A DNA stretch of 64,000 nt, from positions 7,586,501-7,650,500 of the forward strand of contig OZ024869.1 of assembly GCA_964017185.1 (NCBI GenBank), written 5' to 3'. Source of the stretch: Rugalucina vietnamica. Taxonomy: Eukaryota > Mollusca > Bivalvia > Lucinida > Lucinidae. The notes beneath the pieces are model-generated. The model did no database searches, had not been told where the DNA came from, and was given only the letters and a program-made list of their open reading frames with translations. A program made the translations under genes and the position numbers. Positions 12,879 to 62,124 of the stretch are shown in pieces. Position 1 is the first letter of the stretch; every line of letters starts with the position of its first letter.

Positions 12879-14006
12879 GTATAGTAAATTTTCCGTTTTT
12901 GGATGGTGACGTTCCTCGTCGTGCTTCTTATGGTGTATACATTTCGCAACTTATTAGGTTTGCTAGAGTCTGCAATCATGTTACAGACTTCAACGCTCGA
13001 AATAAATCTTTAACGGCCAAACTTCTCCAACAGGGCTATCGGTATCATAAACTTCGAAAAACCTTTTCTAAATTTTATCGTAGACACTATGAATTGATTT
13101 CCAAATATAATGTTGGGTTAAAGACGCTTTTAAGTGAGGGTCTTTCGGAACCAGAATTTTATGGTGACTTGGTTTACAAATTTAAGAAACTTATAGGAAG
13201 TAATGATTTTTCTTTTCAGTTTAGAAAAATCATAACACGTTACAGACGTATAGGTTATAACTTGAATGTTATGCGACAGTCTGCATGCTTAGTTTTTAAC
13301 CCAACCACGGTTGATAACTATGCTGCCTTCTTTAATTGCACGCCGGTGGGTCGGGCGTCAGACTCTATGATGGCCCCGACTTAAAGCTATTCATTTTAGT
13401 TGGTTGGGGCCGGAGCTTCTTGTCTGTTGCTTGGCCCACCGGGGTTCAACTGATGTTTTTCTTTAGCTCCGGAGTTAGTAAGTTATTTGGCGCCCAGGGA
13501 TCTCCATCGTCGGGCAGCTTACTGAATCTGTGAGTCCTGGTTTTTGATTCATCAGGATGTTTATCATGATTTATTTGTTTGTTCTTGATGATTCATTTAC
13601 TAGTTAGAGATTCACCACGAGGACCGAAGAACTAACTAAATGTTATGAACCACTGCAGAAGCTGAGGGTGAGGTTACGGCCGTGTAAAATCGATTTAAAC
13701 CCGCCAGTAACTTTGTGTTACTGATCGTTCCAAGTCGATACTTCTGTGGTGGTTCTTTTTGTTTTATGTCTTGGTGTTTAAAATATTTTTGTGCTGTTGG
13801 CGCCTTATGTATGTTTGCATATTTTTAGTTAAGTTAAGGTAACTGAGTGGCCACCTATTGGGAAAATAGCTGCTCATTCGGCTTACGAAATGTTTTCATG
13901 GTATAAGTACCTGATTGTTAGTTTGGTTTTTTCCCACCTTGGTTTTTTGAGTGGGAGTCTTTTTCTGATTGCGCCTTTTCCTGATCTTTGCCTACTTGTA
14001 CTTTTT
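12879..14006 (+). mobile_element. Naiad-type Penelope-like element copy B, 5' truncated
   Basis: Begins inside the RT-associated C-terminal region and runs to the element's 3' end. The open frame 12899-13384 covers GDVPRRASYGVYISQLIRFA through KYNVGLKTLLSEGLSEPEF to FNCTPVGRASDSMMAPT, then a stop. The 3' UTR follows with CCGCCAGTAACTTTGTGTTA and ends CTGATCTTTGCCTACTTGTA. It lacks the catalytic YLDD segment, so it is dead. It is the reference for the uninterrupted frame of copy F at 61.2 kb. Confidence 0.85.
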
Positions 14007-34004: not shown

Positions 34005-36897
34005 TCATACTTTGCCAGCAATTTTCATCAATCTAAGATTTTGGCGATTCAGGAGACAAAAATTGACAATTCCATATTAACGTCTGAATTATTTCCGGAA
34101 TCTTTTCCATACAGCGTGTACAGAAAGGATAGAACCTTAAATGGTGGTGGTGTTATGCTTCTTGTGCACAAGGACATCCCACACATGCCCCTCACAGAAT
34201 TGGACAATGACTCAGAGTCGGTTTGGGTCAAACTTTTTGTAAATAAGAAAACTCATTTTGTGGCTAGCTGGTATCGACCACCTGTCGATGGTCATTTACC
34301 AGTATCGGACAATGGAAATGACTTATTGAATTCCCTGGAAAAGTTTGACAATTTATTTAGAGAACAGCTTGACAAAATCAAAAATATTAATAAAGGCAAC
34401 AAACCCCCCTTAATTCACGTTTTAGGTGATTTCAACTTTAGAGATATTGTATGGCCAGACAGACTCAGCAAATCTGGGTCATCATTGAGTCAGACGGAGG
34501 GTCAGATTTTGATAGATATCATGAATGACCACGGTTTGGAACAATTAGTCAATTTCCCCACCAGAGAAAGAAATACTTTGGACTTAATTTTGACCTCTCT
34601 TCCTGGTCAGTTTGCAGACATTCATTCCCCGGATAAGCTCAGTGATCATGACATTGTTTCCGGCACTTTGAAAATTGCTATCCCCCCAATAAAGAAACCT
34701 AGGAGAAAAGTGTATCGTTATCAGAAAGGTAATTATGAATCTATGAGAGCAGAAACACTTAAATTTGCAAAGGAAAGATACTTCAACGGTTACTCAGATA
34801 CTCGGTCGGTCCAGGAAAATTTCAATCTCATTACATCGTTTATTCAGGAATCGGCAGATAAACATATCCCCTCAAAAACTAGTCGCTCAGTTTCCTCTGT
34901 CCCTTGGATAACACCTGAAATAAGGAGGAAGATTCGCAGAAAAAATGCAACTCATGCAAAGGCTAAAAAGACTGGTAGTGCAAAAATTAGATCTAAATTT
35001 GAATCTTTACGGAGAGAGATCAAAGCTGATATCAGGAAGCAGCATGATCTTTACGTGAACAACTTGGTAGGAGATGTTAAGGCTAATCCTAGAGATTTTT
35101 ACAGGTACATAAACAGTCAGAAAAAAGATACCCAAGGTATTCCCCCGTTGAAAAAGAGAAATGGAAGCGGAATTGCACAATCCGAATTTGAGAAGGCGGA
35201 AGAATTTAATGGTCAGTTCTCGGATGTTTTCACTAAAAGTGAATACAAACAGGTCCCTCTTATGGATAGATCTGCCCCATTCATGCATGATATTGTTGTC
35301 ACAAAGGAAGGGGTGACCAAACTTCTCAAAGGTCTAAACCCGTCTAAAGCCTTAGGGCCTGATGAGCTTCATCCCAGAGTCCTAAAGGAACTGGCTGTGG
35401 AATTAGGGCCGGTATTCGCCCATCTCTTCCAACAGTCAATTGATACAGGTGAAATTCCTAAAGAATGGTCTCTTGCTAATATTTGCCCCCTGTTTAAGAA
35501 GGGCGACAGGTCTCTTGCCCGCAATTACCGCCCTGTTTCTTTGACATGCATTCCTTGTAAGCTTCTTGAACATATTGTATGCTCAAATATTATGGCCCAT
35601 CTTGATGAACATGAACTCTTGTCGGACAGGCAACACGCATTTAGGAAATGGCATAGCTGTGAAACTCAGTTGACTACAGTGATAAATGACTGGGCCAAAA
35701 TCTTAGACAAAAAAGGCCAGGTCGACACTTTTATACTCGATTTTGAAAAGGCTTTTGATACTCCTCCCCATGAACTCCTTAAAAGCAAATTGTTTAGCTA
35801 TGGAATAGGTGGAACAACACTGAATTGGATAAATGCTTTCCTTTGTTTCCGACAACAAAGGGTAGTGGTTAATGGTATTAAATCGGATTGGGCTCCAGTT
35901 GTCTCCGGTGTCCCTCAGGGCACCGTTCTCGGCCCCTTGCTGTTTTCCTTGTATATAAATGACATCTCAGCAGACATTGAGTCTGAAATAAGACTCTTTG
36001 CTGATGATTGTGTTTGCTATCGTGAAATCAAGAATGAAGAGGATACATTGAAACTTCAGAGAGACATTGATCGTTTAGGCAGTTGGGCTAGGAAATGGGG
36101 AATGAGATTTCAACCCGTCAAATGCAACATGATGCAGCTGACAAATAAACGGTCTAGTAAGATACAGGCTAACTACACCCTTGAGGGCACTGTACTGGAA
36201 AACGTTGAAAGCATAAAATACCTTGGTGTAACTATCACAAATGATTTGAAATGGAATACTCATATTTCCAATGTCTGTACAAAGGCTAACAGAACTCTCG
36301 GATTCTTAAGGAGAAATTTGTATTCTTGTCCCCCAGATGTGAAAGAAGCAGCTTATAAAGGACTGGTGCGGCCGGTCTTGGAATATGGAAGCTCAGTTTG
36401 GGACCCTCACACTCATGGCCTCCAGGAAGAACTGGAAAAGGTACAAAATCGTGCGGCAAGGTTTGTGACGGGAAATTATGTTTTTGAAACTGGGAGCATG
36501 ACTGGCATTTTAGGTCAACTGAAATGGGAATCTCTTAAGAAAAGGAGGAAGGATAGTAGACTTATATTGCTATACAAAGGTCTAAAGGGTAAAGCCAGAA
36601 TACCCACAGATGACCTTATCCCAAAGAATAGGCGTTGTAGAAATCAACACTCTTTGGCTTTTCAGATACCTTCAGCTAGCAAAGAAGCGTACAAAAGTAG
36701 TTTCTTTCCACAGACTATCAGGGACTGGAATGACCTCACTGATTCACTTATCTCCTCTGCTGAAATGTCTGATGACTGTGTGTCCAAGTTCGCTACACTC
36801 ATGCGTTCAAGGGACTAATTTCTCCCCCATCCGAACCCCCTGGTGAAATAATGTCATTTGGCGTGTCACCAGTAAACTTTTCAGATTCAGATTCAGA
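34005..36897 (+). mobile_element. Jockey-superfamily (CR1/L2-like) LINE, 5' truncated
   Basis: Contains one long frame (34041-36818), a 3' UTR with CACCAGTAAACTTTTCAGAT and a terminal short tandem (TCAGAT)n. The left border is near 34003, where the reading frame meets a stop just upstream of the endonuclease motif. A diverged, strongly truncated relative lies at 18.8-19.2 kb. Confidence 0.85.
34041..36818 (+). CDS. LINE endonuclease/reverse transcriptase ORF2-like protein
   Basis: A 925-codon frame without stops. The first codon used here is TTG; the coding sequence simply continues from a truncated 5' part. The apurinic-like endonuclease covers about residues 1-215: AIQETKID at the start (its upstream part is lost), VASWYRPP, LGDFNFRD and LSDHD. 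The reverse transcriptase covers about 425-700: NPSKALGPDELHPRVLKEL, FKKGDRSLARNYRPVSLT, FILDFEKAFDTPPHELL, SGVPQGTVLGPLLFSLYIND and the catalytic RLFADD (about 653-656). The thumb/C-terminal part has KYLGVTITNDLKWNTHI and RPVLEYGSSVWDPH. The RT is intact, so truncation was probably recent, but lacking the 5' end it cannot be an autonomous copy. Confidence 0.88.
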   Translation: MAIQETKIDNSILTSELFPESFPYSVYRKDRTLNGGGVMLLVHKDIPHMPLTELDNDSESVWVKLFVNKKTHFVASWYRPPVDGHLPVSDNGNDLLNSLEKFDNLFREQLDKIKNINKGNKPPLIHVLGDFNFRDIVWPDRLSKSGSSLSQTEGQILIDIMNDHGLEQLVNFPTRERNTLDLILTSLPGQFADIHSPDKLSDHDIVSGTLKIAIPPIKKPRRKVYRYQKGNYESMRAETLKFAKERYFNGYSDTRSVQENFNLITSFIQESADKHIPSKTSRSVSSVPWITPEIRRKIRRKNATHAKAKKTGSAKIRSKFESLRREIKADIRKQHDLYVNNLVGDVKANPRDFYRYINSQKKDTQGIPPLKKRNGSGIAQSEFEKAEEFNGQFSDVFTKSEYKQVPLMDRSAPFMHDIVVTKEGVTKLLKGLNPSKALGPDELHPRVLKELAVELGPVFAHLFQQSIDTGEIPKEWSLANICPLFKKGDRSLARNYRPVSLTCIPCKLLEHIVCSNIMAHLDEHELLSDRQHAFRKWHSCETQLTTVINDWAKILDKKGQVDTFILDFEKAFDTPPHELLKSKLFSYGIGGTTLNWINAFLCFRQQRVVVNGIKSDWAPVVSGVPQGTVLGPLLFSLYINDISADIESEIRLFADDCVCYREIKNEEDTLKLQRDIDRLGSWARKWGMRFQPVKCNMMQLTNKRSSKIQANYTLEGTVLENVESIKYLGVTITNDLKWNTHISNVCTKANRTLGFLRRNLYSCPPDVKEAAYKGLVRPVLEYGSSVWDPHTHGLQEELEKVQNRAARFVTGNYVFETGSMTGILGQLKWESLKKRRKDSRLILLYKGLKGKARIPTDDLIPKNRRCRNQHSLAFQIPSASKEAYKSSFFPQTIRDWNDLTDSLISSAEMSDDCVSKFATLMRSRD

Positions 36898-45030: not shown

Positions 45031-47302
45031 TAAGGATGTTCGCTGCCAATGAAAAAGTATTCAAACTTTTTTTCTAACCACTCTTTTTTGATTTCAAATT
45101 ACAACACAAGACATTTGAAAACAAAATAAATATAGGGTAGTGTGCATTTTTTCAAGCTACAGGCCTCTGAATGAGACCTCTGAGCACCATGTTTTAAATT
45201 TGGTAAAATTAATTTAATTTTTAATTCTTTGAAACAAAAATACACCTAGAATGCTTTCAAAAGTCATAATATTTACGTAACGCAGACTATTTTGGACCAA
45301 AAGCATAGAAAAATTTGCAACTTGGAGTGGATGACAAAATTTTACGATTCCTTTTTCAACCCTACCCCTATACTTGAAAAGTTGGAAAAATCAATATTTT
45401 GAAATGTGCCGAATTCATATTTGTTGATTCAAATTTTTTCTTGTATTTTCACACAACATAGAACTTGGTAATTATGTTCGAATAAAAGAAAGAAATATAT
45501 AGTGTAGTGAAAAGGTACAAGTAGGCAAAGATCAGGAAAAGGCGCAACCAGAAAAAGACTCCCACTCCAAAAACCGAGGCGGGAAAAAAACAAACTAACA
45601 ATCAGGCACTTATACCATGAAACAATCGTAAGCCGAATGGGCAGCTATTTTCCCAATAGGTGGCCACTCAGTTACCTTAACTTAACTAAAAATATGAAAA
45701 CATACATAAGGCGCCAACAGCACAAAAACTTTTAAACACCAAGACATAAAACAAAAAGAACCACCACAGAAGTATCGACTTGGAACGATCAGTAACACAA
45801 AGTTACTGGCGGGCTTAAACCGGTTTTACATGGCCATAACCTCACCCTCAGCTTCTGCAGTGGTTCATAACATTTAGTTAGTTATTCGGTCCTCGTGGTG
45901 ACTCTCTAACTAGTCAATGAATCATCAAGAACAAACAAATAAATCATGATAAACATCCTGATGAATCAAAAACCAGGACTCACAGATTCAGTAAGCTGCC
46001 CGACGATGGAGATCCCTGGGCGCCGAATAACCTACTAACTCCGGAGCAAAAGAAAAACACCAGTTGGACCCCGGTGGGCCAAGCAACAGACAAGAAGCTC
46101 CGGCCCCAACCAACTAAAATGAATAGCTTTATGTCGGGGCCATCATAGTCTGACGCCCGACCCACCGGCGTGCAATTAAAGAAGGCAGCATAGTTATCAA
46201 CCATGATTGGGTTAAAAACTAAGCATGCAGACTGTCGCATGACATTCAAGTTATAACCTATACGTTTGTAACGTGTTATGATTTTTCTGAACTGAAAAGA
46301 AAAATCATTAATTCCTTTAAGTTTCTTAAATTTGTAAACCAAGTCACCATAAAATTCAGGTTCCGAAAGGCCCTCACTTAAAAGCGTCTTTAACCCAACA
46401 TTATATTTGGAAATCAATTCATAGTGTCTACGATAAAATTTAGAAAATGTTTTTCGAAGTTTATGATACCGATAGCCCTGTTGGAGAAGTTTTGCCGTTA
46501 AACATTTATTTCGAGCGTTGAAGTCTGTAACATGATTGCAGACTCTAGCAAACCTAATAAGTTGCGAAATGTATACACCATAAGAAGCACGACGAGGAAC
46601 GTCACCATCCAAAAAAGGAAAATTTACTATATCAAAATCAAAGTCATCGCGCTTATCATAAATTTTAGAAGAAAGAAATCCATTTGCAACAGAAAGATGT
46701 AGATCTAAAAAGGGGGCTTCAGTATCTGAGATATTGGCTTTGTTCAACCGAAGTTCAGGTGGATAAATTTGATTGACCATACCTTCAAAATAAGGGTTGT
46801 CAATGTTCAATAGGTCATCGAGGTACCTAGATGTGGAACTAAGCATATAAGAGAGAACCAACAACTTGAAAATCGCCATTTTCAGCCTTTCTACGGCTGT
46901 TTTGTTTCAAAAAGCCCATTTCATAAAACCACCTAAAATTTTAAAACCAGCACACTAAAGACACAAAGACTGACTTAGAAGACCATGTACATATATACTG
47001 CTGCTAAAATTAACATCGATCTAGTGCAATTAATTTTAAGATGTGTAATATTCAAGTTTAATCTACCCTACCCCCTAAATTTTACTGACAACTAAAATTT
47101 TCTGAAAAGTTGCAGAAAATGGGGTGAAAAAATGAAGTTTCTTAGATTGACAATTTTCATGGCTCATTCAATGCATATCATCAATATGTATCCAAATATG
47201 AAATATTAGGAATTTCAAAATATCTGCAACCGTTTACGAGATATTCAAGAAAAGAAAAACCGGAAGTTCCGAAATGTCAAATGTTGGCAGCGAACATCCT
47301 TA
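45031..47302. mobile_element. TIR element interrupted by a Naiad copy
   Basis: The ends TAAGGATGTTCGCTGCCAA (45031-45049) and TTGGCAGCGAACATCCTTA (47284-47302) are perfect 19-bp inverted repeats. Removing the Naiad insertion at 45511-46838 leaves about 940 bp without coding. The left part has a relative at 38.1-38.6 kb. That the two ends belong to one insertion is inferred from the perfect match. Confidence 0.65.
45511..46838 (-). mobile_element. Naiad-type Penelope-like element copy C (reverse), 5' truncated
   Basis: The reverse-strand open frame 46879-45980 (299 codons) starts in upstream flanking sequence. It enters the element at the catalytic TSRYLDDLLNIDNPYFEGMV and proceeds through SDTEAPFLDLHLSVANGF, FPFLDGDVPRRASYGVYIS and LLQQGYRYHKLRKTFSKFY. 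A base missing in GRASDYDGPD shifts the natural C-terminus. The element 3' end is TGCCTACTTGTACCTTTT, reading down at 45511. The RT fingers and palm before YLDD are absent, so it is inactive. Confidence 0.85.
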
Positions 47303-49419: not shown

Positions 49420-49686
49420 AAAGATAAAGATAAAGAAGCTTTATTTATACGTCGCGTTTTTAACAGACAACATTAGCTCATGATCTATTATGCGACATAA
49501 CAAATATCCTTAACAGATACTTACCTGCCTTCTTGTATCTTCCTGGAATTACCCTTTTATTGCGAGCGTCAGCAAGGGAGCTACCAGTACCATTTTTACG
49601 CCTTTGGTATGGCGCGGCCGAGGATCGAACCTGCGACCCCCCGATCCCGAAGCGAACGCTCTACCACTTGAGCTATCGGGGCCGGT
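49420..49686 (-). mobile_element. tRNA-derived SINE nested in Naiad copy D
   Basis: On the reverse strand: GATAGCTCAAGTGGTAGAGC (A box), GGTTCGATCC (B box), a 267-bp body and a (TTTATC)n tail. AATT flanks both sides (49416-49419 and 49687-49690). The uninterrupted sequence in copy C (about 46412-46430) confirms the borders. Confidence 0.9.
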
Positions 49687-50270
49687 AATTCAAAGTGTCT
49701 ACGATAAAATTTAGAAAAGGTTTTTCTAAGTTTATGATACCGATAGCCCTGTTGGAGAAGTTTTGCCGTTAAACATTTATTTCGAGCGTTGAAGTCTGTA
49801 ACATGATTGCAGACTCTAGCAAACCTAATAAGTTGCGAAAAGTATACACCATAAGAAGCAAGACGAGGAACGTCACCACCCAAAAAAGGAAAATTTACTA
49901 TATCAAAATCAAAGTCATCGCGCTTATCATTAATTTTAGAAGAAACAAATCCATTTGCAACAGAAAGATGTAGATCTAAAAAGGGGGCTTCGGTATCTGA
50001 GATATTGGCTTTGTTCAGCTGAAATTCAGGTGGATAAATTTGATTGACCATACCTTCAAAATAAGGGTTGTCAATGTTCAAAAGGTCATCGAGGTACCTA
50101 GATGTGGAATTAAAAGCCTCGATAACATCAGCTTGATTATCATGGTAAAGAGAATCCACGAAATCTCTTTCGTAGCAGTATAAAAATAAATCAGCTACGA
50201 GAGGTGCGCTATTTGTACCCATCGGAATTCCAACAATTTGTCTGTATAACTTGGTCCCAAATCTAATATA

Positions 50271-51462
50271 TACTGACGTCAACAAAAAACGCCTCAGTCA
50301 ACTTTGACACGTCATATTGCCAAGATTACCAACTTTAATTATTCTAACTATTGGTCATATCTTTTGCTAACCTTTTACGCATTCGGAAATGCTGAATTGG
50401 AATTATTCAGACATCTGCTTGAAACATGGCATGCTGTTGAAAACATACACCCCTCGCGAAATCCATATTCTGTTCATGAACCGGTATATCAGGCATCGCT
50501 TCTTTCGATTACTGAAAGTCTCCTTTGCAATACCAACACATGGGCCATAGAGTAGGATATCCATACGTGGCCATATGTTGTTGAAACACATTTTTTAAAA
50601 CCAAATTTCGTTCTCTAGCGTTATTGGCGTCATTGCAGCTAATGATCAATACTTAAATGGTAATCGCCGTCAAAATGGTCAAAAAGTTTTCAAATGCTAT
50701 CCTGGCATGGCTATTTGACAAAAAAATAGTTTCTATTGTTCTTTCTTTGCCTTTCAGCCTGAAACAAACGTCCTTACGGATAACGTGTATTTGACGTCTA
50801 AGGAAATAAGCGTCAGACTACCATTGCTCCATTCTTGGCTATTTATTTGAAATAATGCGACTACTTTATGAAAATGAACACAAGGTGTACATCCGAATAT
50901 AACGGCATCGTTTCTGAAATGTTTCATCATAAGAATTCGTAAGCATAAGAGACGTCGACGTCAAAATGATTTTGCCACAGAAGCGTCGGCGAATGAGCTT
51001 GGGTAACAAAAATCGATATAGGGAATCATGTGTCGATGCGAATAATGATCCCGGACTATGGAGTCGCTTCGAACGCCAGAAACCGAGCGGTATCATTTTT
51101 TTTCGTTCTGTCTGATTCCTTTCTTGTGAAAAGTCCCTTTGATAATTTCAGTATTTCAACTTCAAATAGTCCAGTGATGTTGCATTTCAAAATTTTGATG
51201 TTCACACGTTTGTAAAACGACTTTGCACGGCTTTCAAGAATTTTCACGTCAAAAACGTCTATATAATGACGTCAGGGTGCATTTTTAAAAATGGTGCACC
51301 CACGCAAGTTTTGAGAAAAGTACGCATCTTAATCAAATTCAGTTTATGCTATACCATGAGAGAGAAGGTAAAAATAAGGAAAATGCAAGTTTCGTTCATA
51401 TTGTGTATCTTTTGGCAAAGTTATGCAAAATTTTCGATGAGGCTTTTTTATTGACGTCAGTA
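50271..51462. mobile_element. 1.19-kb TIR element nested in Naiad copy D, TA target
   Basis: The left end TACTGACGTCAACAAAAAAC and the inverted right end TACTGACGTCAATAAAAAAG continue GCCTCA, giving about 26 bp with one mismatch and one indel. TA flanks both sides (50269-50270, 51463-51464), and copy F at 60.60 kb supplies the empty site AATATTTATATTAG. TGACGTCA lies in both ends and at 51267-51274. Internal frames (for example 51056-51247 reverse) have no recognised transposase. Confidence 0.85.
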
Positions 51463-52440
51463 TAGATATTATCAAGGAGATAGGACAAGGCGTCGCACAT
51501 ATTCTGACATGACCAAAGTGTATACCGACTTTGGATAGAGGAAGTGAAAAAAAGCCCGTCAGTCATTACATGCCAAATAAAGTGAACCATAGTTTTTTAA
51601 TGCCCTTTTGAAGGTCCACTCTATCAAATCCAGAAGTTTTTCTTTTATTAGATTTTGTGGTAATGTTGTATACAGAGTAGAAAAATCATATGTAGACAAG
51701 CTTGTCGCACAGAACCCTCTACACTTCAATTTACTGAGCACCTCACCAGAATTTTTATTGACCAAAACCAATTTTTATTTGAAGTTTCATACACTGTCTC
51801 ACAGTATCTTATATATAACATGAGACTTGATAGCAGTAAGACAGGAAGTTAATAATTTAGAAAGTTCAGTGGTAGAACAAGAGCTAGAATTTGCAATAAA
51901 TCTAGCTTTGTATGGTCTTTTGTGAAGCTTAGGTAACCAATACATCGTAGGAAGTTTGTCTTGGCCTTCATTGACACAAACAGAAAACTTAACAGGTAAA
52001 TCGTTTGGCAATATCCTGTTTTACTCTATATTCTACATATACAAGATCCATTGATTTTCAGTCTTAATCAGAATCATTAACCACTGAAAGTTCCCTACCA
52101 TTCACAGATGAAGTGATAGTAGTCTTAGAGCATAAATGATTGAAACAGTTGCACTTCTTGGCATTGCACTTGGAAATACTAGGGTACATTCCAGGTCTCT
52201 TGAACGTATTAATATATTTACGTAAAATTGGTGCTTTTAGTGGAGATAACCTAATCTGAAGATTATTACGAAACATATTTGAATTAGAAGCTCCGTGTAG
52301 ATTAACAGTAGATGCCGAAAATAAATTAAGAGGTGTCACCCTAACAGAAGGTAATAAATTTTGAAAATTGTTAGTTGAATGAGGAATCCGTACAGTAGAC
52401 GCGGCATGCAACCTCCTTTATTTGCCCCTACCCCTGGGAG

Positions 52441-53420
52441 GCATGCTGAGTTCGATGAGTTGCATAAATTGAACTATAAATTCGGTGAGTTGGATAAGCT
52501 GCTTGCTGAGATCGATGAGTTGGGTAAGTTACATGCTGAGTTCGATGAGTTGGATAAGTTGCATGCTGAGTTCGATGAGTTGGGTAAGTTACATGCTGAG
52601 TTCGATGAGTTGGGTAAGTTACATGCTGAGTTCGGTGAGTTGGATAAGTTGCATGTTGAGTTCGATGAGTTTGACAAGTTGCATGTTGAGTTCGATGAGT
52701 TGGGTAAGTTACATGCTGAGTTCGATGAGTTGGGTAAGTTACATGCTGAGTTCGGTGAGTTGGATAAGTTGCATGCTGAATTCGATGAGTTGGATAAGTT
52801 GCATGTTAAGTTCGATGAGTTGGATAAGTTGCATGCTGAGTTCGATGAGTTGGGTAAGTTACATGCTGAGTTCGGTGAGTTGGATAAGTTGCATGCTGAG
52901 TTCCATGAGTTGGATAAGTTACATGCTGAGTTCGATGAGTTGGATAAGTTACATGCTGAGTTCGATGCGTTGGATAAGTTGAAAAATACTGCCGATGAGT
53001 GAATCGATAAGTTCGAGGCGTTGAATGAGTTGAGCAATGAGTTGGATAAGTTAGATGAGCTGGATAAGTTACATGCTGAACGATGAGTTTTATAAGTTGC
53101 ATGCTGAATTCGATGAGTTGCATAAGTTGAACAATAGGTTAGGTGTGTTGGATAGCTTTTGTAAGTTGCATGTTGAGTTCGATGAGTTCCATAAGTTTGA
53201 TGAGGGGGATAAGCCAAGCAATAAGTTGAGGGATGAGTTGTGTACGTTAAACAATAAGTTCGATGAGTTGAATATGGTGCATGCTGAGTTCGATGAGTTG
53301 GGTAAGTTGCATGCTGAATTCGATGAGTTTGATAAGTTGTATGTTGAGTTGAATGAGTTGCATAAGTTGAACTATAAGTTAGGTGAGTTGGATAATTTGA
53401 GGGATGAGGGATGTGTTCCA
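52441..53420. repeat. 30-bp minisatellite, open in several frames
   Basis: About 32 units of the type GAGTTGGATAAGTTGCATGC + TGAGTTCGAT. They are homogeneous in the middle (52530-52990) and decayed outward. The 30-bp period is a multiple of three and stop codons are absent from five of six frames, so long frames arise: + 52379-53002 (EFDELDKLHA repeats) and - 53421-52474 (SSNSACNLSN repeats). No start context, splice sites or homology support a protein. It directly abuts the 5' end of Naiad copy D. Confidence 0.85.
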
Positions 53421-54729
53421 TCAGTTAAACAATAACAGCGGTTGAGAAAAAAAAGAAGGGCCACCGGTATGTGTGGGACTGATTTGGCAAAACTGTCATT
53501 ATTTATTGCTTATATTCTACAAGGTCAAATTGCTGGCTTCACGTTCAGACTTATTTCAAGTTGTTTGATATGATAATTTCAAGTTTCTACAACCATACAT
53601 AATAGAAATGGGAAACGCGGTGACCTAGTGGTAGAGCGCAGAGCGTGTTATTGTGACGGAAGTAATGAGTGTCACTATAGGTTCATTTTCTGAAGTGTGT
53701 GCGAAAACGAAATAACCTGAATTCCTTATGTTACTTTCATTCAATAAATGTTTAATTTCTGCAATTCCTGCACCTATCCATCAGCCAATAGAGTAAACGC
53801 TATGAGAGAAAATTCACCTCAACTTCGGCGACAACAGCAATGTGCGTCACCGATCGTATCGGTTTGTAGACATTCCATATCACGTGATTCTCAGCTGCGT
53901 TATGTACGTTTTCATATTTTAGTTAAGTTCTGTGTAATGGGCAAACATTTTTGCAAAAATATGAGTAATGTATGTTTTATACAATATGGTTTATACAACA
54001 GGACTTTGCTTCTTTTTAATGCATTGAATATTGGATGAAATATTTATCACATTCCTCGTACATACACATTTTACATAGGATAAAAACAAAGCGGATGTCT
54101 ATTCATTTGCTGACCATATAATAATCGTCATTTAAAAAGATGACTGCATGGTCAACATCTGCTTCATTTTTATCCCATGAAAGACATGTATGTACAAAGG
54201 AATGTGATTAAAATTTGTAGACTTTCGCCGCTGAATTTTCAATACGACTTTCATCAAGTATTTAATGCATTATAAAGAAGGAATGTGACTTACATTCTTT
54301 TCATAGGCGACATCTGTTTTTTTTTTAAATAATGTACGTGCAAAGATGATAAAAGATTGCGCACTCTTTGCCATGGAATTTTAATGAAACAGAGGACAAA
54401 AATGCATTCTGCACCTTTCATAGATAGCCTAATAAAACTAGCAAATAATTACTCTTGATATTCAAACGCCGGCTGTTACACACGCCTCCGAATAAAGGAC
54501 TCTATCCCATACCACTGCATTATTATACAATTCCTTTATTCCTTTAGAATAAAAAGCAAATAATTAACTCACGCTTTTGCATTAGAAACCGGGCGTTGTC
54601 TTATCAACTGTTTACACATAACTGTATACACATATCCCAGATGCAACATCCCTTTGCTTTTCTTAGCATTTTCGCAACTAACAACCAGTTAGTAATTACA
54701 GTTGTACATTGTTTAACAGTAATGTGGCA
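53421..54729. other. upstream region of the fucosyltransferase, with a tRNA-like scrap
   Basis: 53612-53640 holds GCGGTGACCTAGTGGTAGAG, an A-box-like fragment of a SINE head without a B box. Otherwise I see no gene or repeat. The promoter and any 5' UTR exons of the downstream gene are presumably here but are not identifiable. Confidence 0.4.
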
Positions 54730-56199
54730 ATGGATACTAAACAGAAACTTTTTATTTTGATAGTGCTGTTCACAATAACTCTAGCGGCCTATACGTATGT
54801 GGTGTACGGACCAATATTTTCTATTTACCAAATACTTGACAAGGTGGAACATATGACCGGGAACGCTATGGCCTTGCAACAAAGAAAAGATGCTTTTAAA
54901 CAACGGACTTGGAGCAATTTGAAATCGCGGCCGGATTATTCCTTTAACAAAAGCTCATTTCATCCAAGGGCAAAACAGTATCCACAATATATTGTGTCAG
55001 AACCTCTAGGTCGACTTGGAAATCAGATGTTTGAATTCGCTTCATCACTTAGAAGCATAAACTATACACATGTCGTAAGGCCATCTCATGCTTTGCTGGA
55101 AGTTTTCCAACTGTCGAAGGCGTCTAGTGTTAACGTAACAAATATTATGCGTATAACTGAAGGTCAATGGAGAAATAAAACATGGAGAGCCAATAAGAAG
55201 TTCATGTCATTTAACCTTACGCTATATGGTTACTTTCAGTCACGCAAATTCTTTGAAAATGCAGCGGATGAGGTATGGAAAGCATTCACGATTAAACAAG
55301 AATTTACAAAACAAGCTAAAGCATTTCTAGACGCACATATCCATGCAAAAAATAAAACGATCATAGGTATTCATGTTCGAAGAGGGGACTTTTTAAAAGA
55401 TGGGGAAATGAGGTTAGGGCGAGTTGTTGCCAGTTCTTATTACTTCAGACAGGCAAAAATGTACTTCCAGCAAATGTACAAAGACACAGTGGTTGTTGTT
55501 ATAAATGTAACAGGCGAAGAAAAATTCTTTCTTCCCTGACGGGGATCGAACCAGGTTCTCCCGCGTGCTAAGCGAACACTCTACCACGTCGCTGTAAAAG
55601 CCGGCTTGTACCGCAAGGCAGTACAAGTGTGCTATATACCTATACCCTGTGACATTCTCCCCCACCAAATTGGGCTTCGTCCCCGAAGTCCCAGGCCATA
55701 GAGTTTATCGTAGAAACAAACTCGGGGAATTACTGCACGGGTCATAGGATTAATTCACGTTGGGCGCCACTGAAATGTAACAGGCGAAGAAAAATTCTTT
55801 CTTCCCTGACGGGGATCGAACCAGGTTCTCCCGCGTGCTAAGCGAACACTCTACCACGTCGCTGTAAAAGCCGGCTTGTACCGCAAGGCAGTACAAGTGT
55901 GCTATATACCTATACCCTGTGACATAAGCGATGATATAAAATGGTGTAAGGAAAACATTGCAGATAATAACACCATTTTTAGTAACTTCAAAACGCCTGT
56001 TGTCGACATGGCGTTAATGAGATTGTGTCATCACATGATAACAAGCTCGGGAACATTTAGCTGGTGGTGCGGGTGGTTTTGTAAAGGAACTGTGATATAT
56101 ATGAAAGACCACCCTCAACCTGGTTCTCAAATTAGCAGGTATCCAAAATTTAAAGAGGGCTTTTACTTGCCAGCTTGGATAGGGATGGGTAACAGTTAA
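54730..56199 (+). pseudogene. GT11-family alpha-1,2-fucosyltransferase-like gene, interrupted by a TRIM
   Basis: GT11 enzymes transfer fucose from GDP-fucose to galactose as type II Golgi membrane proteins. The ATG at 54730 is followed by a short basic start and one membrane anchor (LFILIVLFTITLAAYTYVVY). Then come EPLGRLGNQMFEFASSLRSI, IIGIHVRRGDFL (the GDP-fucose-binding H.RRGD motif), and after the insertion SDDIKWCKENI, DMALMRLCHHMI and SSGTFSWWCGWF. The insertion at about 55505-55923 breaks the frame after VVVVI: eleven foreign residues, then a stop at 55539. Without it the frame is continuous, 348 residues with no intron, normal for the family. All catalytic motifs are intact, so the locus was functional until recently; other alleles may be uninterrupted. 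The exact acceptor sugar cannot be told. Confidence 0.85.
55506..55924 (-). mobile_element. TRIM (miniature LTR element) with tRNA-Ala-like sequence in each LTR
   Basis: Two identical 149-bp direct repeats (55506-55654, 55776-55924) begin TGTAACAGG and end CCTGTGACA. Between them are 121 bp without coding. Read on the reverse strand, the right LTR is followed by TTTCAG and then TGGCGCCCAACGTG, a primer-binding-site-like motif. The sequence before the left LTR is GGTGGGGGAGAA, polypurine-like. Each LTR holds a tRNA-like stretch (55535-55605, 55805-55875): A box TGGTAGAGTG, anticodon-loop-like GCTTAGCACGC (AGC, Ala) and B box GGTTCGATCCC. The target duplication reads ATAA/ATAA if the ends are set one base in, or TAAA/TAAG with canonical TG..CA ends. 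Confidence 0.88.
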
Positions 56200-59879: not shown

Positions 59880-62124
59880 TGAAGCAGGGTATCCAAGAAT
59901 TTCACAGAAAGTATGTCTTGGTTCCGGCAGACAAAGCCGCAAATAATGTTGTTGTTGTTTGTAGGCTTCACTGCGTTAACACCTTAAAACAGGAGCTGGA
60001 TGGTACCAGGGCTTATCTGGAGACAGATACTGATGAGGTGTCTGTAGTAAATGCCCACTTAAACGATTAACCTGTTAAGTTTTCTGTTTGTGTCAATGAA
60101 GGCCAAGACAAACTTCCTACGATGTATTGGTTACCTAAGCTTCACAAAAGACCATACAAAGCAAGATTTATTGCAAATTCTAGCTCTTGTACTACTACTG
60201 AACTTTCTAAATTATTAACTTCCTGTCTTACTGCTATCAAATCTCATGTTATAAGATACTGTGAGACAGTGTATGAAACTTCAAATAAAAATTGGTTTTG
60301 GTCAATAAAAAATTCTGGTGAGGTGCTCAATAAATTGAAGTGTAGAGGGTTCCGTGCGACGAGCTTGTCCACATATGATTTTTCTACTCTGTATACAACT
60401 TTACCACATAATCTAATTAAAGAAAAACTTCTGGATTTGATAGAGTGGACCTTCAAAAGGGCATTAAAAAACTATGGTTCACTTTATTTGGCATGTAATG
60501 ACAGAAAGTTTTTTTTCACTTCCTCTGACCAAAGTCGGTATACACTTTGGTCATGTCAGAATGTGTGCGACGCCTTATCCTATCTCCTGGATAATATTTA
60601 TATTAGATTTGGGACCAAGTTATACAGACAAATTGTTGGAATTCCGATGGGTACAAATTGCGCACCTCTCGTAGCTGATTTATTTTTATACTGCTACGAA
60701 AGAGATTTCATGGATTCTCTTAACCATGATAATCAATCTGATGTAATCGAGGCTTTTAATTCCACTTGTAGGTACCTCGATGACCTTTTGAACATTGACA
60801 ACCCTTATTTTGAAGGTATGGTCAATCAAATTTATCCAGCTGAACTACAGTTGATTAAAGCCAATATCTCGGATACCGAAGCCCCCTTTCTAGATCTACA
60901 TCTTTCTGTTGCAAATGGATTTGTTTCTTCTAAAATTTATGATAAGCGCGATGACTTTGATTTTGATATAGTAAATTTTCCGTTCATGGATGGTGACGTT
61001 CCTCGTTGTGCTTCTTATGGTGAATACATTTCGCAACTTATTAGGTTTGCTAGAGTCTGCAATCATGTTACAGACTTCAACGCTCGAAATAAATCTTTAA
61101 CGGCCAAACTTCTCCAACAGGGCTATCGGTATCATAAACTTCGAAAAACCTTTTCTAAATTTTATCGTAGACACTATGAATTGATTTCCAAATATAATGT
61201 TGGGTTAAAAGGTACAAGTAGGCAAAGATCAGGAAAAGGCGCTTTTAAGTGAGGGTCTTTCGGAACCAGAATTTTATGGTGACTTGGTTTACAAATTTAA
61301 GAAACTTATAGGAAGTAATGATTTTTCTTTTCAGTTTAGAAAAATCATAACACGTTACAGACGTATAGGTTATAACTTGAATGTTATGCGACAGTCTGCA
61401 TGCTTAGTTTTTAACCCAATCACGGTTGATAACTATGCTGCCTTCTTAAATTGCACGCCGGTGGGTCGGGCGTCAGACTCTATGATGGCCCCGACATAAA
61501 GCTATTCATTTTAGTTGGTTGGGGCCGGAGCTTCTTGTCTGTTGCTTGGCCCACCGGGGTCCAACTGATGTTTTTCTTTAGCTCCGGAGTAAGTAAGTTA
61601 TTTGGCGCCCAGGGATCTCCATCGTCGGGCAGCTTACTGAATCTGTGAGTCCTGGTTTTTGATTCATCAGGATGTTTATCATGATTTATTTGTTTGTTCT
61701 TGATGATTCATTTACTAGTTAGAGATTCACCACGAGGACCGAAGAACTAACTAAATGTTATGAACCACTGCAGAAGCTGAGGGTGAGGTTACGGCCATGT
61801 AAAATCGATTTAAACCCGCCAGTAACTTTGTGTTACTGATCGTTCCAAGTCGATACTTCTGTGGTGGTTCTTTTTGTTTTATGTCTTGGTGTTTAAAATA
61901 TTTTTGTGCTGTTGGCGCCTTATGTATGTTTGCAAATTTTTAGTTAAGTTAAGGTAACTGAGTGGCCACCTATTGGGAAAATAGCTGCTCATTCGGCTTA
62001 CGAAATGTTTTCATGGTATAAGTACCTGATTGTTAGTTTGGTTTTTTCCCACCTTGGTTTTTGGAGTGGGAGTCTTTTTCTGATTGCGCATTTTCCTGAT
62101 CTTTGCCTACTTGTACTTTTTTTT
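59880..62124 (+). mobile_element. Naiad-type Penelope-like element copy F, longest RT
   Basis: Covers most of the RT and the full 3' UTR. It starts GIQEFHRKYVLVPADKAANN (59884 onward). A TAA at 60068 (TTA in copy D) breaks the frame, and a 30-bp insertion near 61209-61238 shifts it again. The C-terminus at 61284-61499 matches copy B. The 3' end is GATCTTTGCCTACTTGTAC, then poly(T). The N-terminal endonuclease region is absent. Confidence 0.88.
60122..61252 (+). CDS. Penelope-like reverse transcriptase fragment
   Basis: A 376-codon frame. RT motifs in order: YWLPKLHKRPYKARFIANSS (RT1-2), TSLSTYDFSTLYTTLPHNLI (motif A, the catalytic Asp in YDFS), IVGIPMGTNCAPLVADLFLY (motif B), TCRYLDDLLNIDNPYFEGMV (catalytic YLDD), then SDTEAPFLDLHLSVANGF and FDIVNFPFMDGDVPRCASYG. 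The last eleven residues (GTSRQRSGKGAFK) come from the 30-bp insertion. The LPKLHK and DKAANNVVVV signatures are those of Penelope-like elements. Known Naiads may read in-frame UGA as selenocysteine; no such codon is convincingly present here. Confidence 0.85.
   Translation: MYWLPKLHKRPYKARFIANSSSCTTTELSKLLTSCLTAIKSHVIRYCETVYETSNKNWFWSIKNSGEVLNKLKCRGFRATSLSTYDFSTLYTTLPHNLIKEKLLDLIEWTFKRALKNYGSLYLACNDRKFFFTSSDQSRYTLWSCQNVCDALSYLLDNIYIRFGTKLYRQIVGIPMGTNCAPLVADLFLYCYERDFMDSLNHDNQSDVIEAFNSTCRYLDDLLNIDNPYFEGMVNQIYPAELQLIKANISDTEAPFLDLHLSVANGFVSSKIYDKRDDFDFDIVNFPFMDGDVPRCASYGEYISQLIRFARVCNHVTDFNARNKSLTAKLLQQGYRYHKLRKTFSKFYRRHYELISKYNVGLKGTSRQRSGKGAFK

Follow-up and report, generated by a model that had tools for sequence, protein, structure and literature searches.

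Helenus (TRIMp3) is the name given by Kojima 2024 (PMC10886601) to TRIMs that carry tRNA-derived sequence in their LTRs, and the features summarized here are those given in the parts of that paper that were covered. Helenus elements are 311-1263 bp in length, with 51 bivalve families, found in Pteriomorphia, and the animal families display 4-bp target duplications. The primers of the bivalve families include tRNA-Lys, and seven bivalve families can encode tRNA-Thr. A box A motif (TRGCY..YGG) is present in most, but not all, families and transcription by Pol III is presumed, while Gypsy elements have been inferred as the helpers of the animal families from PBS similarity (PMC10886601). In addition, Helenus is mentioned in the covered part of a 2026 meeting report (PMC12859917).

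The window examined here, i.e. the whole stretch of 64,000 nucleotides of Rugalucina vietnamica DNA that was analysed, contains an element of this known kind, assigned by the published description, as far as covered, rather than by a consensus sequence. The first-pass annotation had described it as a miniature LTR element that unites a tRNA-Ala-like Pol III promoter with an LTR/TRIM structure, and knew of no described animal equivalent. The union of a TRIM with a tRNA-derived, Pol III-type segment is borne out by the LTRs, the PBS, the purine tract and the tRNA-alignment scores, but the supposed lack of an animal counterpart is not, since Helenus is of the same kind. The earlier interpretation is therefore partly supported, and it overlooked both the Gypsy hybrids and a second family with a tRNA-like LTR. 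We consider it highly probable that the element is a Helenus-type, non-coding TRIM of about 415-419 bp, which carries a tRNA-derived promoter segment in its LTRs and is moved in trans by Gypsy elements. This reading is built on the LTRs, PBS, purine tract and 4-bp duplications of a young multicopy family, on a solo LTR and on one single-DNA hybrid with a Gypsy element.

Structure of the element and its insertion site

The complete LTR element occupies positions 55506-55924 on the minus strand and is 419 bp long, its fetched relatives being mostly of about 415 bp (Table 1). The two 149-bp LTRs are 100% identical, enclose 121 bp of internal sequence and, read on the minus strand, run from TGTCACAG to CTGTTACA with TGT...ACA termini; the boundaries and identical repeats proposed in the first-pass annotation proved exact. 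Each LTR does contain the perfect B box that had been claimed, and the promoter, PBS and purine-tract motifs do share one orientation, all of them lying on the minus strand. The LTR-PBS spacer consists of TT only in the other 43 of the 44 copies listed and has 4 additional bases in the window copy, the target duplication of which (TAAA/TAAG) matches at 3 of 4 bases.

The window copy interrupts a family-11 glycosyltransferase frame. When the element and one 4-bp copy are removed, an unbroken frame of 355 residues is obtained, which matches P0002 at 77% across the site. The copy provides an example of a TRIM interrupting a host gene.

Table 1. Coordinates of the element, its motifs and the interrupted gene, given as window positions
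Feature	Position	Strand	Basis
Host gene 5' part, glycosyltransferase family 11 (fucosyltransferase-like)	54709..55501	+	PF01531, E 3.8e-12
Target-site duplication, left copy TAAA	55502..55505	.	Empty site in frame
3' LTR, 149 bp	55506..55654	-	Pairwise LTR comparison
T5 run, 3' LTR; R region may end here (3' side)	55520..55524	-	Sequence reading
B box, 3' LTR	55542..55552	-	As B box of 5' LTR
Box-A-like CAGCGACGTGG, 3' LTR	55584..55594	-	3 mismatches to consensus
Polypurine tract GGTGGGGGAGAA, adjoining 3' LTR	55655..55666	-	Sequence reading
PBS TGGCGCCCAACGTG, 14 nt, match to the tRNA-Lys 3' end	55756..55769	-	tRNA-Lys match visible in L028
LTR-PBS spacer, 6 nt, 4 bases extra	55770..55775	-	Extra bases in window copy alone
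5' LTR, 149 bp	55776..55924	-	Identity with 55506-55654; TGT...ACA ends
T5 run 3' of B box, 5' LTR; possible Pol III terminator	55790..55794	-	Sequence reading
B box GGTTCGATCCC, 5' LTR	55812..55822	-	Exact consensus match; LTR position 103
Box-A-like CAGCGACGTGG, 5' LTR	55854..55864	-	3 mismatches to consensus
Target-site duplication, right copy TAAG	55925..55928	.	Empty-site reconstruction
Host gene 3' part, beyond the insertion	55925..56199	+	Joined-flank frame

The tRNA-like segment of the LTR

Ten sequences, eight of them typed from recall (including tRNA-Ala and tRNA-Gly) and two genomic (L064 and L028), were aligned to the LTR core. The highest scores were those of the tRNA-Thr-like LTR of the L064 type (29; 43 of 55 columns), tRNA-Gly (28) and tRNA-Ala (27; 38 of 48 columns for each of the latter two). 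In 300 letter shuffles per alignment, the score never exceeded 14 for any of the three, and the seven further tRNAs scored 9-17. By these alignments the LTR core is clearly tRNA-derived, with Ala-, Gly- and Thr-like tRNAs matching it to much the same degree. The tRNA-Ala label of the first-pass annotation is thus right as to the tRNA origin and too narrow as to the tRNA; its outright rejection, which a comparison with the Thr-like and Lys sequences alone had led to, was dropped, Ala and Gly scoring about as well.

When the LTR was shuffled 20,000 times with its dinucleotides preserved, a perfect B box arose on either strand in 19 of the shuffles, four of which also contained a box A by a criterion that excludes the real LTR. 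Where box A would be expected in the LTR, the best candidate, CAGCGACGTGG, keeps AGC and TGG but departs from each of the two consensus forms compared by 3 mismatches, so the A box claimed earlier is in place as a box-A-like motif and imperfect as a match. No cloverleaf was found: ARAGORN called no tRNA in the window, and Rfam gave no match (tRNA, 5S) at E<=1 within 55400-56000. Read by eye, 3 of 5 positions of the T stem pair. Rfam matches that scored below the gathering threshold at eight other loci were regarded as chance hits.

In 81 sampled LTRs, the B box is retained in 74, AGCGACGTGG in 75, any T5 in 80 and TATATAG, a TATA-like motif situated in U3, in 73, and GATCCCCGTCAGGG is accompanied by TTTT anywhere downstream in 56. 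In a young family, such retention does not separate selection from youth. By analogy with its kind, use of the LTR by Pol III is likely, while the TATATAG in U3 makes transcription by Pol II possible.

Copies in the genome and a second family

The search with the full element, in which the best 40 of 646 candidates were scored, gave 44 matches, three of them short pieces, while the best 40 of 847 and of 120 candidates were scored with the LTR only and with the internal region, respectively. Genome-wide pattern matching located the PBS/internal signature at 88 places with at most 2 mismatches, 53 of them exact, and the reversed-pattern control gave 0. In a sample of 88 loci, hits were chained in 51, the other loci having been excluded manually as duplicates of places already included; this gave 51 rows, a few of which share a locus. 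The chained rows are the best-scoring places, and hence a biased sample, and the full-element matches were fetched in part. Duplications of 4-6 bp and solo LTRs were among the checks that the first-pass annotation had proposed: an exact 4-bp duplication bounds the outer ends of 24 of the 51 chained rows, one of which is a solo LTR. Among the 40 rows with two LTRs, whole or partial, 17 are without an exact 4-bp duplication, and in 6 of these 17 an LTR is truncated or split. The internal region of the family measures 117-121 bp. LTR pairs are free of substitutions in 12 of 33 cases (10 of these 12 are also gap-free), which indicates that the TRIM family is young. A tandem TRIM array, LTR-internal-LTR-internal-LTR with the outermost LTR truncated, was observed at L055:1001-1665.

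A tRNA-Thr-like LTR, as in L064, defines a second TRIM family, for which 78 matches were obtained when the best 40 of 874 candidates were scored, many of them paired about 230-240 bp apart. A complete copy (L110:1498-1843; C16:29594735-29595080) has two identical 115-bp LTRs, an internal region of 116 bp and TGAC/TGAC flanks, with the purine tract GCAGGGGGAAAA and the PBS TGGTGGCCAGTGTGGG, which we take to be tRNA-Ile-like. An LTR of this second family has a good tRNA (Rfam 58.5 bits; tRNA-Thr by ARAGORN).

A Gypsy family joined to the TRIM

LTR' is a 460-bp Gypsy LTR with the ends TGTCACAGAG...CCCGTTACA, in which, by eye, AATAAA is present and a B box absent; at L011, a TRIM LTR is joined to it head to head via PBS sequence. 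The search with LTR' gave 41 matches, several of them paired about 6.7 to 13 kb apart. The border between purine tract and LTR' is GAGGGGGAGAA-TGTCACAGAG in all three readable cases (C5, C11 and C1; the C8 border lies outside the fetched piece), that of the TRIM is GGTGGGGGAGAA-TGTCACAGGG, and the end of the purine tract and the start of U3 are common to both. In three of four sampled LTR' elements, TGGCGCCCGGCTTCAG directly follows the LTR; the fourth, at C5, is a hybrid.

From its 5' end, this hybrid (C5:55975661-55982813) consists of LTR', a T, TGGCGCCCAACGTGGGGC (an 18-nt tRNA-Lys complement), TRIM internal sequence, a TRIM LTR and then a Gypsy reverse transcriptase (PF00078, E 5.7e-20), with a purine tract and LTR' at its 3' end, an order read on either side of C5:55976701-55982049. 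The TRIM internal sequence is matched at 98 of 98 nt and the TRIM LTR, up to about position 139, at 98.6%, while the TRIM 5' LTR is missing precisely at the U5/PBS border. The outer flanks are CATA/CATA, so the hybrid integrated as one DNA, and joint reverse transcription of TRIM and Gypsy RNA is therefore probable. At the switch, which lies in CTTCG immediately past T5, the letters are GGAAGAAAGATAATTCTCTTCGTTTCTG on the Gypsy side and GGAAGAAAGAATTTTTCTTCGCCTG on the TRIM side; shared letters at a switch point are expected for template switching. A switch at this place fits an RNA that would extend beyond the T run and not stop inside it. The case for a Gypsy helper rests on this one hybrid with a target duplication; by pointing to a specific Gypsy family, the hybrid opens the question of the helper to testing.

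The tRNA-Lys letters of the C5 PBS are absent from the 43 other TRIM copies listed and from the three LTR' elements in which the PBS was read. The ordinary TRIM PBS region is AACGTGAATT, and the GGGC version is missing from 43 of 44 internal copies listed. The PBS extended by tRNA-Lys letters, AACGTGGGGC, was found on TRIM internal sequence at two sites of the genome, C5 and C15 (exact pattern; control 0), and at both of them a foreign 5' LTR stands ahead of it. At C8 (L056:1001-1260; C8:54149190-54149449), two TRIM LTRs, one of them partial, face each other head to head, with the 18-nt tRNA-Lys complement between them. In addition, a TRIM LTR at L028:1423-1498 is immediately followed by a sequence that resembles tRNA-Lys(CTT), CCA included, and that is called by ARAGORN and scores 32.1 bits in Rfam against a gathering threshold of 29. 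Our reading of the extra tRNA letters at C5, C15, C8 and L028 is that they would be copies of the primer tRNA-Lys, and L028 is possibly strong-stop DNA copied from it; as its D arm is degenerate, L028 could alternatively be a tRNA pseudogene or SINE, and the letters at C5 and C15 could come from another element with a full 18-nt PBS.

Hybrid junctions were found at eight sampled loci (L009, L011, L012, L028, L029, L063, L064 and C8) and at C5, the only one for which a target duplication on both outer sides has been shown. Inspection by eye indicates that the TRIM PBS and internal sequence directly follow another, Gypsy-like purine tract and LTR at L063, that the internal region stands behind a tRNA-Thr-like LTR at L064, that foreign LTR/PBS-like sequence is joined to the TRIM purine tract and LTR at L029, and that the 5' LTR of L012 is a mosaic. 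The TRIM sequence abuts a Gypsy LTR at L009 and, apparently, an inverted-repeat element at L027. At L009 and L089-L090 (C17:1276160-1286600), a TRIM LTR with 14 nt is fused to the LTR of another Gypsy at the first base of the latter, and gag/pol-like frames lie beyond (by eye). The suspicion, raised at L009, that the TRIM LTR is part of a larger autonomous element was given up, the 149-bp LTR merely adjoining the other Gypsy's own LTR.

Proposed propagation of the TRIM and alternative explanations

The TRIM RNA would start near box A of the 5' LTR, presumably by Pol III, pass the first T5 and end near the T5 of the 3' LTR, which would provide the terminal redundancy R. Minus-strand synthesis would then be primed by tRNA-Lys inside a particle made by Gypsy, followed by priming at the purine tract, strand transfer and integration with Gypsy enzymes. 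We slightly favour the further proposal that TRIM and Gypsy RNA shared one particle, in which second-strand transfer via the tRNA-Lys PBS sequence set a foreign LTR before the TRIM (C5, and C15 with a mosaic LTR), and that such LTR swapping at the U5/PBS border lets a TRIM change its promoter class and helper, a route other than the one already proposed, in which a SINE inserts into an LTR. If confirmed, this would mean that a miniature element can switch between promoters of the Pol III type and of Pol II in either direction.

The TRIM might instead use a normal Pol II LTR promoter, the TATATAG in U3, and keep the tRNA-derived segment as an inert relic. We give this serious weight, although we hold it to be somewhat less probable than its negation, since TATATAG is kept in most sampled LTRs, box A is poor and falls short where four shuffles succeed, neither ARAGORN nor Rfam calls a tRNA in the window LTR, and the C5 junction lies immediately past T5. 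An exact B box of a rarity seldom reached in shuffles, followed by T5, speaks against it, as do the sibling family, whose 115-bp LTR contains a good tRNA, and AATAAA, which by sequence reading is absent from the TRIM LTR and present in LTR'.

The hybrid loci would be uninformative on the helper if they arose only once their parts had integrated, through recombination of DNA or nested insertion. The mosaics C8, L011, L012, L027, L028 and L029, which have no matching 4-bp duplication at their readable ends, accord with such an origin, but the foreign LTRs at both ends of C5 between CATA flanks, the loss of its TRIM 5' LTR exactly at the U5/PBS border and tRNA-Lys letters unseen in the other TRIM copies listed and in the LTR' PBS read make it unlikely. 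The idea of a tRNA-derived SINE duplicated in tandem by chance, which the first-pass annotation had itself set against its reading, explains the promoter segment only and is extremely improbable, given TG..CA termini and a solo LTR with a duplication; a plain tandem SINE is ruled out by the 4-bp duplications and by an internal region, PBS and purine tract included, that recurs together with the LTRs.

Other features of the window and the genome

A long non-LTR retrotransposon frame (PF14529, PF00078) lies at 34041-36818 of the window; one relative at 77% is labelled as a Candidatus Thiodiazotropha MAG, perhaps by host contamination there. Four frames (12899-13384, 45980-46879, 49596-50285 and 60122-61252) share one common repeated protein, which we take to be Penelope-like; the one of the four that was tested, 60122-61249, gave no Pfam match. 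Overlapping repetitive frames on both strands at 52379-53421 contain a tandem repeat of the FDELDKLHAE type. Elsewhere in the genome, mitochondrial COX1 was encountered at L115 (C47:12236-13576); among the 120 relatives listed for it, the named ones, which belong to several phyla, show about 64-68% identity and one other 86%.

Comparison with known systems

The window TRIM resembles Helenus, as described in the covered parts of PMC10886601, in being non-coding, in its length of 419 bp, its tRNA-derived LTR sequence, its Lys-type PBS, its purine tract and the 4-bp duplications of its family. It differs in its poor box A (CAGCGACGTGG, 3 mismatches, AGC and TGG kept) and in the hybrid-provirus evidence for the helper, which is absent from that paper as far as covered. 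A helper fixed by a single-DNA hybrid is new here in relation to Kojima 2024, within the same limits, and to the literature found; hybrid proviruses of TRIM and Gypsy were not found in the open-licence literature searched, which is no proof of absence.

The plant TRIM Cassandra, in the account covered in PMC10886601, is likewise a miniature element whose LTRs contain the Pol III promoter of a small RNA, but its LTRs carry 5S rRNA sequence, whereas those of the window element carry tRNA sequence, with no 5S by Rfam. The biv-TRIM (PMC6934838, as far as covered) is also a short bivalve TRIM with LTRs and an internal domain, and its purine tract is GGGGAGA. However, its repeats are 202-218 bp and its internal domain 77-80 bp long, with no clear PBS, in contrast to the 149-bp LTRs, 117-121 bp internal region and clear Lys-type PBS of the window family. 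Finally, SINE2 (tRNA SINE) elements are single units without LTRs, a PBS or a purine tract, whereas the window element has all three.
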